DNA of 5,585 nucleotides from Acidobacteriota bacterium (GTDB taxonomy: Bacteria > Acidobacteriota > Vicinamibacteria > Vicinamibacterales > UBA8438). Positions within the stretch are counted from its first letter, which is position 1; each line of letters opens with the position of its first letter. Positions 1,223-5,311 of the stretch are shown one piece after another. The position numbers were made by a program, and so were the translations under genes. Location: the NCBI GenBank assembly GCA_012963185.1, contig DTWD01000035.1:1-5585 (forward strand), in the 5' to 3' direction. The notes under the pieces are model-generated. The model worked only from the letters and a program-made list of their open reading frames with translations, was not told the origin of the DNA and did not search any database.

Positions 1223-1417
1223 CAGAGGCGGTGAATATCCTGTCGTGACTAAGGTCAATATCTGTCGAGTATTTGATTCGTGAAGTGGAAGAAAAGAGAT
1301 TTTTTTACTGGACAGCCAGGTACTGTTTTCCGGAGACGGATCGTAGCATGCGGAGGAGCGCATTCGAGTTTCTCATGAGATCAGCTGGTAGCGAAGAATA
1401 GGATAGGATTGAGAGCG
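1223..1417. promoter_or_regulatory. Divergent intergenic region between hom and the cysteine operon
   Basis: This 195-bp spacer must hold the promoters for both directions. On the minus strand a weak sigma-70-like pair can be drawn: TTCACG, 16-nt gap, GATATT, shortly upstream of hom. No convincing plus-strand -35/-10 pair stands out. Visible structure: TGAC-TAAG-GTCA inverted repeat (1246-1257) nested in a near-direct repeat AATATCCTGTCG (1234-1245) and AATATCTGTCG (1257-1267); a run of seven T (1300-1306); and a perfect 10-bp palindrome TCTCATGAGA (1371-1380) about 37 nt before the cysM start. Any of these could be operator sites, but each is short enough to be chance. No known riboswitch was recognised. 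The regulatory role is inferred from position. Confidence 0.4.
1405..1408 (+). promoter_or_regulatory. Ribosome binding site favouring the ATG start of cysM
   Basis: AGGA lies 9 nt before the ATG at 1418. A second AGGA at 1400-1403 lies 5 nt before an in-frame TTG at 1409, so a start three codons earlier is possible. ATG is preferred for codon type and acceptable spacing. The surrounding leader AGGATAGG recurs upstream of the carrier gene at 3198-3205. Confidence 0.45.
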
Positions 1418-2755
1418 ATGGATGATAACGTGCTGCGCGTCTACGACTCGATTCTAGGGATGCTGTCTGGACCGGAGAATCCGACGCCATTGGTACGACT
1501 CAATCGCGTTACACCGTTTCAGCACACGCAGGTTTACGGAAAACTTGAGTGGTATAACCCTTTTGGCGCGGTTAAAGATCGTGTTGCAGCGAATCTGATT
1601 GCTGACGGTGAAGCGCGTCATACCGTGCAAGAGGGTCAGAAATTAGTCGAGCCAACATCAGGGAATACCGGGATGGCGCTCGCCATGATTGCGAATGCGA
1701 AAGGATATTCGCTGACGACACCTATTTCAAGTGAGGTGCCCCTAGAGAAACGTACGATGCTGAGATTTTTTGGTGCTGATGTTCTGGAGCTTGAGGATAC
1801 ACTCTGTCCTGCACCGGGAGCCCCGGAGGGGGCCATTGCGAAGGCAACTGAGATCAGTGAACGATCAGACTATTTAATGCTGAACCAGTATGCCAACGAA
1901 GCGAATCCTGAGGCACATTACAAGACTACAGGACCTGAGATATGGCGTCAGACTCAGGGAAAGGCAACTCATTTTGTTTGTGGTCTTGGTACCTGCGGCA
2001 CGATTACTGGAACAGGACGTTTTCTTAAGGAGCAGTCCGAGAGCGTCCAGATACTTGGCATCCACCCACAGGACGGCCACGATATTCCTGGCGTTCGTAG
2101 TATCCGGCAATTGCAACAGACGAAGTTGTTTTTTCCAGACGAGTACGACGGCCTTATTGAGGTAACGAATCAAGAGGCATTTGACCTTTGTCTTCGACTG
2201 AATAGGGAGGAAAGTTTGATTGCCGGGCCAAGTTCTGCGATGGCGCTGGCCGGTGCTTTCAAACTTGTCCCGGACGAACCAGGCAATGTAGTGGTCGTGA
2301 TTTTTTGTGACAGTGCTTTCAAATACGCATCATCGGTTGTAAAACATCTTCCGGGGTTGGTTGCCGCAGAAATTAAGAAAGATAATCCGAAGAATCCTCT
2401 CCTCGACAGTATGGTTGAGAATGTTCGCGGAAATGCAGAGCTCACGATTGATGTCGATTCGGCGCATGCAGAATGGAATACTGGCAAGCTTTTTGTCGTG
2501 GATGTGAGACCTCGGGATCAATTTGCGGAAGCTCATTTGCCCGATGCTATCAACATGCCACTTGCGGAGATCCAAGAAAACCATCAGGGATTGCCTGAGG
2601 ACTTTGATGCGCCGATACTGAGCGTTTGTCAGCGCGGAAATGCATCCCTGTCTGGCCTGCTTTTTCTTAAGTCACTTGGATACCGGAATGTGCGTAGCAT
2701 CGACGGCGGTACGCTTGCATGGCGTGAAAAGGGATTTGAAACTGTTACAGAGTGA
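1418..2755 (+). CDS. cysM: CysM-type cysteine synthase fused to a C-terminal rhodanese domain
   Basis: Predicted PLP enzyme that makes cysteine by beta-replacement. Numbering is from the ATG at 1418 (445 aa). Residues ~5-315 are a fold-type II synthase: NPFGAVKDR contains the Schiff-base Lys53, PTSGNTG (79-85) is the substrate carboxylate loop, and GLGTCGTITGTG (189-200) is the PLP-phosphate loop, with Cys193 where Mycobacterium CysM has Thr. IPGVRSIR (about 224-230) has arginines near the place of Arg220, which in M. tuberculosis CysM recognises O-phosphoserine. DSAFKYASS (298-306) resembles the CysM DAGWKYLST block. Residues ~342-445 form a rhodanese domain with DVRP and an active-site loop CQRGNAS (Cys404). 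Ordinary CysM is about 300-325 aa, so the extra ~120 residues are a true fusion in one uninterrupted frame. The next gene starts 15 bp after the stop. The genes that follow suggest a carrier-protein thiocarboxylate as sulfur donor rather than free sulfide; O-phosphoserine is the likely acceptor, but O-acetylserine is not excluded. Confidence 0.9.
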   Translation: MDDNVLRVYDSILGMLSGPENPTPLVRLNRVTPFQHTQVYGKLEWYNPFGAVKDRVAANLIADGEARHTVQEGQKLVEPTSGNTGMALAMIANAKGYSLTTPISSEVPLEKRTMLRFFGADVLELEDTLCPAPGAPEGAIAKATEISERSDYLMLNQYANEANPEAHYKTTGPEIWRQTQGKATHFVCGLGTCGTITGTGRFLKEQSESVQILGIHPQDGHDIPGVRSIRQLQQTKLFFPDEYDGLIEVTNQEAFDLCLRLNREESLIAGPSSAMALAGAFKLVPDEPGNVVVVIFCDSAFKYASSVVKHLPGLVAAEIKKDNPKNPLLDSMVENVRGNAELTIDVDSAHAEWNTGKLFVVDVRPRDQFAEAHLPDAINMPLAEIQENHQGLPEDFDAPILSVCQRGNASLSGLLFLKSLGYRNVRSIDGGTLAWREKGFETVTE

Positions 2756-2770
2756 CGGTACGGACTACTG

Positions 2771-3178
2771 ATGCTTATGTTGCAGTCCGAGGCGGACATG
2801 GATATTAGGCGGCATGGCCGAGAGTCGTACCCTGAAGAGTGTTGTGGAGCGTTAATAGGTCGTAACGGTTCAGTCGTTGAGGCTATGCGCCTTCCGAATC
2901 TAATGGGGGAAGAGGCCCGTCGGTATTTTCTGGTTGGGCCGGTTGAATACCAAGTGGCTGAAAAACGAGCTGCCGAGATGGGAGGGAAGCTGATGGGGTT
3001 TTACCATTCGCACCCTGACCATCCAGCGCGTCCGTCACAGAATGATCTTGAACAGGCTTGGCCGACGTTTTTGTATGTCATCTTGGCTGTGCAGAATGGT
3101 GAACCAGGCACGATGACTTCATGGCGCTTGCGTGAAGATCGGTCAGCCTTTGACGAACAAACGGTTGCTGTGACATAA
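2771..3178 (+). CDS. mec: JAMM/Mov34 zinc metalloprotease (Mec-type)
   Basis: A 135-residue single-domain JAMM (MPN+) peptidase, the usual size for bacterial members. The zinc-site consensus is complete: Glu23 in PEECCG, then HSH (79-81) followed by seven residues, Ser89, two residues and Asp92, exactly the HxHx7Sx2D pattern. In M. tuberculosis, Mec+ hydrolyses the CysO-cysteine adduct to free cysteine. In the thioquinolobactin and Wolinella systems, JAMM homologues (QbsD, HcyD) trim residues behind the Gly-Gly of the sulfur carrier. Both jobs are plausible here because the adjacent carrier has a tail beyond Gly-Gly. It lies 15 bp after cysM and 40 bp before the carrier gene. The start ATG at 2771 has only a weak GGA about 6 nt upstream; an in-frame ATG at 2777 is an alternative. 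Activity is inferred from intact metal ligands and context. Confidence 0.88.
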   Translation: MLMLQSEADMDIRRHGRESYPEECCGALIGRNGSVVEAMRLPNLMGEEARRYFLVGPVEYQVAEKRAAEMGGKLMGFYHSHPDHPARPSQNDLEQAWPTFLYVILAVQNGEPGTMTSWRLREDRSAFDEQTVAVT

Positions 3179-3218: not shown

Positions 3219-3503
3219 ATGGCAATCCAGATACTCATTCCGACGCCGCTGCGCGTCTATACAGATAATCAAGATACGGTTGAAGCGGAAGGTTCTACGG
3301 TGGGAGAGCTTCTTGCCAATATGACGGACCAGTACACGGAATTACGAAAGCATCTTTACCGTGAAGACGGTAAGCTCAGAAGTTTCGTGAATATTTATCT
3401 TAACGACGATGATATTCGATACCTTGAGAAGGAAAAGACACCAGTGACATCGGAGGATACGGTGAGCATCGTTCCGTCGGTTGCAGGTGGGGGATGTTTG
3501 TGA
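3219..3503 (+). CDS. cysO: CysO/MoaD/ThiS-like sulfur carrier with a Cys-Leu tail behind Gly-Gly
   Basis: A 94-residue ubiquitin-like beta-grasp protein. It resembles Mycobacterium CysO: IPTPLRVYT near the N-terminus, GSTVGELLANM (25-35), FVNIYLNDDDIRY (56-68) and a C-terminal VPSVAGG. In this family the terminal glycine is adenylated by an E1-like enzyme and converted to a thiocarboxylate, which acts as sulfide donor. Here the sequence does not stop at Gly-Gly: it reads Ala89-Gly-Gly-Gly-Cys93-Leu94 and then TGA. Such a tail would block adenylation until removed. A Cys-Phe tail on QbsE is removed by the JAMM protease QbsD in thioquinolobactin synthesis, so processing by the neighbouring JAMM protein is likely. 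Start is ATG 3219 with AGG 8 nt upstream. The last 10 bp overlap the moeZ reading frame, indicating translational coupling. Placement between mec and moeZ favours cysteine synthesis over molybdopterin or thiamine synthesis. Confidence 0.9.
   Translation: MAIQILIPTPLRVYTDNQDTVEAEGSTVGELLANMTDQYTELRKHLYREDGKLRSFVNIYLNDDDIRYLEKEKTPVTSEDTVSIVPSVAGGGCL
3485..3493 (+). promoter_or_regulatory. Ribosome binding site of moeZ inside the Gly-Gly codons of cysO
   Basis: AGGTGGGGG is a strong Shine-Dalgarno-like stretch that also encodes the end of Ala89 and the Gly-Gly-Gly of the carrier. It sits 3 nt (from AGGTGG) before ATG 3494 and 9 nt before GTG 3500. The latter start overlaps the cysO stop as GTGA, a common coupled arrangement. 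Both starts give the same protein apart from two N-terminal residues. Confidence 0.5.
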
Positions 3504-4666
3504 CGACAGAATCTCCCGTATCACTTAGTAATCAAGAGGTCGAACGTTACAGCCGACATTTGATTATGCCGGAAGTCGGCATGGACGGGCAGCTGAAGCT
3601 AAAGGCTGCAAGCGTGCTCTGTATTGGAGTCGGAGGTCTCGGGTCTCCTGTGGCAATGTACCTGGCAGCTGCCGGTGTTGGGCGACTTGGTCTAGTTGAC
3701 TTTGATGTTGTTGACTACAGCAACCTCCAGAGGCAAGTCATTCATGGGACGCCAGACGTAGGTCGGTCTAAGCTTGAATCTGCTCGAGACACGCTTGTTG
3801 CGATCAATCCGGAAGTTGCGATCGATATGCACGAGACGGCACTCTCGTCGTCTAACGCATTTGACGTGCTCGGTGATTACGACGTCGTTGTCGATGGTAC
3901 AGATAATTTTCCGACCCGATATTTGGTGAACGATGCGTGCGTGTTACTGCGTAAACCGAATGTGTTCGGTAGTATCTTTCGATTTGAAGGTCAGGTATCC
4001 GTTTTTGCAACCGAGCAGGGACCGTGTTATCGCTGCTTATATCCTGAACCTCCGCCGCCAGGGTTGGTGCCGAGTTGTGCTGAGGGTGGAGTGTTGGGAA
4101 TTTTGCCAGGCGTCATCGGCACTATTCAGGCCACTGAAACGGTCAAATTAATCATTGGTGTCGGCGAGCCGCTCATCAATCGTTTCATGATTTACGACGC
4201 ACTTCGGATGAAGTTTCGCGAACTGAAGTTGCGTCGCGATCCGGATTGTCCGGTTTGTGGTGATAGGCCGACAGTAACTCAATTGATTGATTACGAACAG
4301 TTTTGCGGTGTCACCCCTGGTGCTCAGGTTTTAGACGACCCTTCGTCTGGCGATAACGTGACAGTTGAGGAACTAAAAGTCTTTATTGATAACAATGAAG
4401 GGGTTTTCGTATTGGACGTTCGTGAGCCACAAGAGCATCAGATTTGTTCCATACCAGGTTCAGTGTTGATACCGCTTGGGGAACTTCCGAACAGAATTAA
4501 TGAGCTTGGCGGCCATGAAGATATGGTGGTTCACTGTAAGTCGGGTGTTCGTAGTGCGAAAGCAGTGAAAATTTTGCGTAACGCTGGTTTCAAAAAAGCG
4601 AAGAATCTCAGTGGCGGTATCCTTCGCTGGATTGATGTTGTCGATCCGTCACTGCCAAAGTACTGA
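3494..4666 (+). CDS. moeZ: MoeZ-type adenylyltransferase/sulfurtransferase (MoeB-like E1 domain plus rhodanese)
   Basis: A 390-residue two-domain enzyme predicted to activate the carrier C-terminus with ATP and then replace AMP with sulfur carried as a rhodanese persulfide. Residues ~14-270 are the E1-like domain: RYSRHLIMPEVG, ATP loop GVGGLGS (45-51), SNLQRQ with the conserved Arg80, and DGTDNF with Asp137 at the catalytic Asp of MoeB. Conserved Cys195 lies in VPSCAEGGVLG. Four zinc-ligand-like cysteines form two CxxC pairs, Cys178/181 and Cys252/255. The linker block DYEQFCGV matches MoeZ. Residues ~288-390 are the rhodanese, with DVREPQEH and active loop CKSGVRS (Cys348). M. tuberculosis MoeZ activates CysO, and moeZ here overlaps cysO by 10 bp, so that carrier is its likely partner. 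It may also serve MoaD or ThiS proteins encoded elsewhere. GTG at 3500 is the alternative start and has better ribosome-binding spacing; ATG 3494 is given for codon preference. Confidence 0.94.
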   Translation: MFVTTESPVSLSNQEVERYSRHLIMPEVGMDGQLKLKAASVLCIGVGGLGSPVAMYLAAAGVGRLGLVDFDVVDYSNLQRQVIHGTPDVGRSKLESARDTLVAINPEVAIDMHETALSSSNAFDVLGDYDVVVDGTDNFPTRYLVNDACVLLRKPNVFGSIFRFEGQVSVFATEQGPCYRCLYPEPPPPGLVPSCAEGGVLGILPGVIGTIQATETVKLIIGVGEPLINRFMIYDALRMKFRELKLRRDPDCPVCGDRPTVTQLIDYEQFCGVTPGAQVLDDPSSGDNVTVEELKVFIDNNEGVFVLDVREPQEHQICSIPGSVLIPLGELPNRINELGGHEDMVVHCKSGVRSAKAVKILRNAGFKKAKNLSGGILRWIDVVDPSLPKY

Positions 4667-4801: not shown

Positions 4802-5311
4802 ATGCTGCGTTTTTCGAAGAAGGCTGACTACGCTCTTATCGCTCTTAAGGATCTTGCATCCCGACCAGACGGTGCATCGTCCAATGCACGTGAGATCGCC
4901 AATAGATATGACATCCCGTCCGAGTTAATGGCGAAGGTACTGCAGCGGTTGGCAAAGATGGGTGTTATTGCGTCGCACCACGGAACACGTGGGGGGTATT
5001 ACTTAGCTCGTTCGGCGCATCAGATTTCCGTTGCCGACATCATCCAAGCGATAGACGGACCATTTCTAGTAACTGCGTGTTCTGATGACGATGAAACGTG
5101 TGACCAATATGCTAAGTGCAATGTGCGTGACCCCCTTTGGCGCCTTAAAGATCTTATTTTGCAATCTCTTTCGTCTTTTACCGTAGATGAACTCGTTTCT
5201 GAGGAACCAAAAAGTCCAGGAATAGATAATGATCGAGAACCATTGTCTCTCTCTGCGGTCAGGCGGTCTTTCGAAACGGTAATCACTCCTGTAAGCAACG
5301 CCGACCGATAA
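4802..5311 (+). CDS. Rrf2/IscR-family transcriptional regulator, probably Fe-S-binding
   Basis: A 169-residue winged-helix regulator, close in length to IscR (162 aa). The N-terminus MLRFSKKADYALIALKDLA is typical of Rrf2. Helix-turn-helix residues ~28-55 (NAREIANRYDIPSELMAKVL) are followed by the wing around HHGTRGGYYLAR (59-70). Cys93, Cys100 and Cys106 lie in the cluster-binding loop, spaced Cx6Cx5C against Cx5Cx5C in IscR. The fourth IscR ligand, His107, corresponds by position to Arg109 (CNVRDPLW), so a fourth ligand would have to differ or be absent. A [2Fe-2S] cluster is likely but not proven. The regulator would sense Fe-S status, redox or a related signal and control the downstream desulfurase and perhaps the upstream cysteine operon. 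A weak GGTG lies 7 nt before the ATG. It has its own promoter-like element and palindrome. CymR-type (cysteine-responsive) or NsrR-type (nitric oxide) function are alternatives. Confidence 0.9.
   Translation: MLRFSKKADYALIALKDLASRPDGASSNAREIANRYDIPSELMAKVLQRLAKMGVIASHHGTRGGYYLARSAHQISVADIIQAIDGPFLVTACSDDDETCDQYAKCNVRDPLWRLKDLILQSLSSFTVDELVSEEPKSPGIDNDREPLSLSAVRRSFETVITPVSNADR
5296..5310 (+). repeat. 15-bp exact direct repeat, copy 1
   Basis: CAACGCCGACCGATA lies at the extreme 3' end of the regulator gene, including most of its stop codon. It recurs 113 bp downstream inside the desulfurase gene, read in a different frame. Confidence 0.6.

Follow-up and report, generated by a model that had tools for sequence, protein, structure and literature searches.

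The CysO-like sulfur carriers of Acidobacteriota mostly end in a short tail behind the Gly-Gly or run on, in frame, into their own E1 (MoeZ), and 135 of the 136 genomes with such a blocked carrier also encode a JAMM metalloprotease. These comparisons make it very probable that the carrier is an inactive pro-form that is freed by the adjacent JAMM, and that the tail or fusion is free to drift where JAMM is kept. Judged across homologues, it is the blockage of the Gly-Gly and not the sequence of the tail that is the conserved feature.

The window (the whole stretch of 5,585 nucleotides that was analysed) contains a cysteine synthase, a JAMM, the carrier and MoeZ in a single cluster, the gene content of a CysO cysteine-synthesis operon (Table 1). 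The zinc pattern of its JAMM, HxH-x7-S-x2-D, recurs in 165/166 JAMM domains (at least 60 bits) from related loci. The PF02597 match of the carrier spans residues 5-91. The layout in which moeZ starts inside cysO, with an ATG-10 or GTG-4 overlap, recurs in locus L008, where the tail is GWS. For the synthase, O-acetylserine sulfhydrylase B (2jc3_A, E 4e-65) is a better match than O-phosphoserine sulfhydrylase (3dki_A, 6.7e-44), and the use of the carrier by this enzyme is therefore something that we infer. The rhodanese-bearing cysteine synthases of the window, L008, L019, L022, and L036 are 73-75% identical among themselves. Most of the first related operons have a different synthase, roughly 36-40% identical to this group. 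Five guanines in a row (GGGGG, 3489-3493) precede the moeZ ATG, which stands in the -1 frame relative to cysO; slippage by -1 at this run would put cysO and moeZ into a single reading frame.

Table 1. Features of the window, with positions counted from its first nucleotide.
Feature	Position	Strand	Basis or remark
Homoserine dehydrogenase	window left end	opposite to operon genes	
Cysteine synthase (CysM / cysteine synthase B type) with C-terminal rhodanese	1409..2755	+	scores below the NCBIfam cut-offs; ATG alternative 1418
JAMM (Prok-JAB) metalloprotease, proposed cap remover	2771..3178	+	PF14464 E 1.7e-23; 2kcq_A E 8.5e-28
JAMM zinc motif HSHPDHPARPSQND (HxH-x7-S-x2-D)	3005..3046	+	intact in window sequence
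CysO-like sulfur carrier, ThiS/Urm1 beta-grasp family, 94 aa + stop	3219..3503	+	PF02597 E 2.3e-14
Codons of working Gly90-Gly91	3486..3491	+	aligned to the terminal Gly-Gly of CysO-type chains, and to homologues
Cap Gly92-Cys93-Leu94 and stop codon	3492..3503	+	sequence; tails of relatives
Overlap of cysO end and moeZ start (ATG 3494; alternative GTG 3500)	3494..3503	+	sequence
MoeZ-type E1 adenylyltransferase with C-terminal rhodanese	3494..4666	+	GVGGLG, SCAEGG, CYRC/CPVCG, and CKSGVR motifs present
Rrf2-family regulator	4802..5311	+	many of the first related loci also have it beside moeZ
Class-V aminotransferase, start only	5369 onward	+	window right end

The original prediction placed two or three residues behind the Gly-Gly of this carrier. 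They are present, and alignment settles the number. The gene ends GGT GGG GGA TGT TTG TGA, which encodes Gly90-Gly91-Gly92-Cys93-Leu94-stop, and the glycine codons begin at 3486, one base after the 3485 first given. In alignments to the solved CysO-type chains 4n6e_B and 3dwg_C the last aligned residues are the final Gly-Gly of those chains, and they fall on residues 90-91. The working pair is therefore Gly90-Gly91 and the tail has three residues (GCL), so that the protein ends SVAGG-GCL. The window thus has what marks capped carriers of the QbsE/QbsD kind, namely a beta-grasp domain with Gly-Gly, residues beyond it, and an adjacent JAMM with an intact zinc motif. It departs by three residues from CysO of the Mycobacterium tuberculosis type, which ends directly at Gly-Gly.

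The tail is not a peculiarity of the window. Among the 120 homologues listed, out of 3205 found, 112 carry tails of 2-11 residues after Gly-Gly, six end plainly in Gly-Gly and two have no Gly-Gly motif. Endings shared among the 120 include GCL (9), SCL (13), and GSL (2), and because these recur the GCL tail is no one-off sequencing error. A conserved Cys-Leu-like tail had been envisaged, and this is rejected, since both length and sequence drift, with 40 different tails in the 112 tailed homologues. Relatives with plain ends and no conservation of the tail would have spoken against a pro-carrier; the lack of conservation and the plain ends in 6/120 are indeed seen, but most relatives are tailed or fused to MoeZ. 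A further candidate, a cysteine behind the Gly-Gly as mimic of the CysO-Cys product, is not general, with Cys in 5/38 free tails outside one clade. Cys makes up 4 of 1920 residues in CysO-MoeZ linkers.

In the relatives L001 and L002 no stop codon separates the two genes, and CysO continues in frame via a linker into MoeZ. CysO-MoeZ-rhodanese reading frames number 102, at 99 distinct places. A search with the CysO-plus-linker region gave matches at E <= 1e-10 for 7669 of 8000 scored candidates; all of the 120 listed carry ThiS and ThiF domains, and those of the listed proteins that are named are called MoeB, adenylyltransferase/sulfurtransferase or similar. Release of the carrier from such a protein is impossible without proteolysis, as follows from the fusion itself. 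In two proteins the JAMM is part of the chain as well: L065 (1852-3705, minus strand) and P0121 each join JAMM, CysO, MoeZ, and rhodanese in about 620 residues, and the two share 47% identity across 97% of their JAMM-CysO portion. P0122, the annotated version of the L065 protein, starts at the CysO methionine, although no stop codon closes the JAMM part. Reading frames that join CysM to JAMM occur at three loci (L159, L161, and L162, of which L159 was checked).

In 96 different linkers the residue directly behind the Gly-Gly is Ala in 34, Ser in 33, Thr in 13, Val in 12, Asn in 3, and Gln in 1, so that one of the first four stands there in 92/96. Free tails are less uniform at this position, and therefore no strict cleavage preference is established. 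Predicted structures put the Gly-Gly into weakly modelled segments, 231-263 in P0121 (pLDDT 71, pTM 0.52) and 88-99 in the CysO-MoeZ fusion P0126 (pLDDT 73, pTM 0.55), both under pLDDT 50; for these two models the overall confidence is too low for docking to be judged.

If a blocked carrier depends on JAMM, the two should go together across genomes. Two phyla were surveyed, that of G001, taken as Acidobacteriota, and that of G002, taken as Ignavibacteriae. The first has 396 genomes; a CysO match (E <= 1e-8) was found in 174, and 145 of these were classified. With genomes counted as JAMM-positive at a PF14464 match of E <= 1e-10 and as JAMM-negative when no match reached 1e-10, JAMM is present in 135/136 genomes with blocked CysO, in 3/9 with only plain CysO and in 19/222 without a CysO match. 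Blocked and plain-only genomes differ at Fisher p = 5e-8, a value that ignores kinship and sets the blocked class against just nine genomes, whose CysO copies score lower. Among the plain-only genomes counted as JAMM-negative, G029 does match PF14464 more weakly, at 3.2e-7, which is above the family cut-off. On these comparative grounds the original prediction of a pro-carrier freed by the JAMM is strongly supported, and the ThiS and MoaD carriers sampled below behave alike.

The single blocked genome without JAMM is G143, whose CysO locus sits on a 3.7-kb contig. A search with the window JAMM gave no match in G143, nor in the six genomes that are plain-only and JAMM-negative. In G143 the JAMM is probably missing from a fragmented assembly, because its CysO is blocked and its neighbours in the ThiS+ThiG tree are JAMM-positive. 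In 11 blocked Acidobacteriota genomes the stretch read contained no JAMM; a strong one lies elsewhere in 10 of them, and in the second phylum all eight fused genomes without an adjacent JAMM carry one elsewhere. At the level of loci, classification (window excluded; 30 loci from the phylum of G002) gave 105 carriers fused to MoeZ (two counted twice), 63 tailed by 1-26 residues and 19 plain. A same-strand JAMM is found no more than 2.5 kb away at 87/105 fused, 58/63 tailed, and 6/19 plain loci.

The next clue comes from outside cysteine synthesis. In five JAMM-positive genomes, 5/15 carriers of the ThiS/MoaD family other than CysO have tails. Tailed ThiS (L242, L243, and L244) and tailed MoaD (L231 and L233) occur in the same genomes, and ThiS and MoaD were therefore surveyed more widely. 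If JAMM frees blocked ends generally, ThiS and MoaD are expected to lose the plain Gly-Gly only where JAMM exists. Both surveys covered the genomes of relatives. For ThiS the sample consisted of the 30 best-scoring loci and 80 of 115 further listed places, including all 38 that were JAMM-negative. In JAMM-positive Acidobacteriota, 36/64 sampled ThiS loci are blocked (31 tails and 5 fusions, with 28 plain), compared with one tail and 45 plain ends at the 46 JAMM-negative loci (Fisher p = 3.6e-10, kinship ignored). The five fusions (L341, L344, L347, L351, and L359) are to a ThiG-like partner, confirmed as ThiG in L344 and L359, and all lie in JAMM-positive genomes.

The same holds for MoaD, for which two sets of 46 genomes were sampled by taking the best 30 loci of each. 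Blocked ends account for 25/30 loci in the JAMM-positive set, which was enriched for blocked ThiS (18 fused, to MoaE in the two that were checked, 7 with two-residue tails, and 5 plain). The JAMM-negative set has 29 plain ends and one tail (Fisher p = 1.2e-10, kinship ignored). For both carriers the sole JAMM-negative exception is the fragmented G143, and apart from it ThiS and MoaD in the Acidobacteriota samples are capped solely where JAMM is present. Among sampled genomes without a CysO match, ThiS or MoaD is blocked in 8/8 that are JAMM-positive and in 0/39 that are JAMM-negative. A Mec-like role in cysteine release is therefore no explanation there.

This bears on the alternative that survives best, although it is improbable. 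What if the tail is harmless read-over from the gene overlap, trimmed by carboxypeptidases or other proteases, while the JAMM just releases cysteine as Mec does? The tail sequence is unconserved and overlaps the moeZ start, as this explanation would have it, and in the second phylum the JAMM stands beside CysO that ends plainly in Gly-Gly. However, trimming from the end cannot mature full fusions to MoeZ, ThiG or MoaE. General proteases would also allow tails in any genome, yet among 46 ThiS and 30 MoaD JAMM-negative loci tails occur in G143 alone, and JAMM tracks blocked ThiS and MoaD even where there is no CysO match.

A second alternative, less probable still, is that blocked carriers and JAMM co-occur merely by inheritance in the same clades, with no functional link. 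Both traits are common to related genomes, and the Fisher tests ignore relatedness. Independent-pairs tests (Treekit) on ThiS and MoaD trees reached no significance, the supported pairs being too few and the tests underpowered, and therefore a four-state model comparison by likelihood ratio was made on trees. It favours JAMM-dependent gain of tails, with gain near zero without JAMM: p = 7e-7 on the ThiS tree with 110 rows (4e-6 with G143 counted as lacking JAMM) and 6e-4 on the ThiS+ThiG tree with 71 rows. Because the ThiS tree is short and its resolution poor, these values are guides and no proofs. Both traits have changed repeatedly, with 18 changes of JAMM and 16 of the blocked state on that poorly resolved ThiS tree and 13 and 6 on the ThiS+ThiG tree. 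The phylogeny-aware test supports a dependence of ThiS blockage on JAMM. Also against mere inheritance, the link is the same in three different carriers, and two proteins hold JAMM and carrier in one chain.

The second phylum supplies a counter-example to any stronger claim, and one that suits shared inheritance. There, ThiS is matched in 56/148 genomes, and the best 30 ThiS loci all end in a plain Gly-Gly (30/30) though JAMM is present in 29/30 of the genomes. Five plain Gly-Gly CysO loci in this phylum have a JAMM neighbour. JAMM beside plain carriers implies that JAMM permits caps and does not cause them. The ThiS data of this phylum are compatible with JAMM being permissive and lend that reading no positive support.

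How might a pro-carrier freed by JAMM work in the window? The carrier would be made as an inactive pro-form, and the adjacent JAMM would cut behind Gly91 to remove Gly-Cys-Leu, a cut and a site that comparison suggests. MoeZ would then adenylate the free Gly-Gly, its rhodanese domain would supply the sulfur for the thiocarboxylate, and the cysteine synthase would use the carrier in this form. The window tail would itself arise incidentally from the overlap (translational coupling) of cysO with moeZ; it ends in Cys-Leu here because the moeZ start lies within its codons. Wherever a lineage retains JAMM, the sequence after Gly-Gly could drift into a tail or into a fusion with MoeZ (CysO), ThiG (ThiS) or MoaE (MoaD). 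That a single JAMM serves all three carriers is, like the cleavage, something we infer. JAMM may also act again to release cysteine from the carrier, by analogy with Mec and HcyD. HcyD of Wolinella performs both steps, removal of the cap and release of cysteine. The two-step protease of the original prediction would therefore not be new in kind, since Mec of M. tuberculosis likewise releases cysteine from the CysO carrier (PMC3227635). The CysO-E1 fusion is so common that a tailed or fused carrier working uncut, with the tail accommodated and sulfur passed another way, is conceivable, but this is hardly credible given that known chemistry adenylates a C-terminal glycine carboxylate (PMC6006322), that uncut SAMP1-MoaE gave no growth without HvJAMM1 (PMC4443979) and that MoaX requires cutting at Gly82 (PMC4326299).

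Capped carriers with JAMM partners are known already, as is JAMM cutting of carrier-MoaE fusions. In QbsE the tail after Gly-Gly is Cys-Phe. In the thioplatensimycin system of Streptomyces, PtmS2 is capped by MV and PtmS3 by C after Gly-Gly, the PtmS1 JAMM gene adjoins ptmS2, and a MoeZ-type homologue is required; QbsE/QbsD are named alongside (PMC6006322). Like the window, QbsE/QbsD and PtmS2/PtmS3-PtmS1 combine a small capped ThiS/MoaD-like carrier (the cap being 1-2 residues in these two systems), a JAMM and a MoeZ-type partner. However, those carriers have been studied for secondary metabolites (thioquinolobactin for QbsE), whereas the window operon is one for cysteine and its cap drifts. 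Also unlike them, relatives of the window fuse the carrier to E1, and genomes with JAMM often have capped ThiS and MoaD as well. The CysO-CysM-Mec-MoeZ set of M. tuberculosis, in which MoeZ thiocarboxylates CysO (PMC3227635), has the same four functions as the window, and the carriers align over residues 2-91. However, M. tuberculosis CysO ends exactly at Gly-Gly (3dwg_C) and the window carrier runs three residues beyond it, while the window synthase is nearer to other CysM-type enzymes than to the M. tuberculosis one and carries a rhodanese domain.

Fused carriers have precedents as well. HvJAMM1 cuts SAMP1-MoaE exactly after Gly (PMC4443979), DRJAMM of Deinococcus acts on MoaD-MoaE (PMC8832034), and Ubl-MoaE fusions have already been noted in Acidobacteria (PMC8832034, PMC4443979). 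As here, the fused carrier of these two systems and of MoaX must be cut after Gly-Gly, in the first two by a JAMM. The partner in all three is MoaE, whereas a three-residue tail takes its place in the window and E1 in the relatives. The operon type itself was described as 4c (ThiS/MoaD, E1-rhodanese, JAB, and cysteine synthase), with one acidobacterium included (Iyer, Burroughs and Aravind, 2006; PMC1779556). The same paper made the prediction that a fused carrier could be released by JAB, and described Ub-like domains on the ThiF N-terminus, in Pelobacter beside a cysteine synthase. It assigned the ThiF-fused domain another role because free ThiS is usually present (PMC1779556). The relevant portions of that survey mention neither CysO-MoeZ-rhodanese fusions nor the JAMM-CysO-MoeZ chain, the short caps or the genome-wide link between JAMM and capped ThiS and MoaD. 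In the open-access literature searched, no report was found of a CysO-MoeZ fusion, a JAMM-CysO-MoeZ chain, a JAMM requirement for capped ThiS or such a reach over three carriers.

An exposed Gly-Gly end counts as the defining mark of sulfur carriers, and likewise of processed ubiquitin. Should one bacterial JAMM lift the Gly-Gly rule for three pathways, this would be a bacterial counterpart of ubiquitin-precursor processing. It would show a route to carrier-enzyme fusions (CysO-MoeZ, ThiS-ThiG, MoaD-MoaE, and JAMM-CysO-MoeZ) and give a testable genome rule, namely that a blocked carrier implies JAMM. It would also be a warning for annotation: capped or fused carriers should not be called broken, nor CysO-MoeZ fusions simply MoeB.

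One clade, with CysO ending in LTIIPSIAGG or LSIIPSIAGG, has Cys in 24/25 tails as against 5/38 other tails. Tails rich in cysteine codons are found here (TSC, CCL, CCCCCCL, and SACCSCCPLL, for example in L073, L078, L110, and L129). Where a moeZ start was found, the spacer between the cysO end and this downstream start measures mostly 80-220 bases (extremes about 20-370) and is predicted to be able to fold. For L114, L116, and L103, fold prediction has the cysteine codons base-paired with the stretch directly behind the stop. Short poly-cysteine reading frames act as cysteine-responsive attenuators in mycobacteria. Perhaps the Cys-rich tail and spacer of this clade form a cysteine-sensing leader. 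A wider proposal, which is speculative and seems possible rather than probable, takes one JAMM as general maturase of CysO, ThiS, and MoaD that would gate the synthesis of cysteine, thiamin, and molybdenum cofactor and lift the Gly-Gly rule for the whole carrier set. In the acidobacterial clade just described, the CysO tail would then have been recruited as a run of Cys codons which, with the long spacer before moeZ, would serve as a cysteine-sensing leader, its peptide being discarded by JAMM. As a minor observation, the CysO tail of L072, 26 residues long (...SVIPSGARDPGFCL), resembles an inserted repeat.
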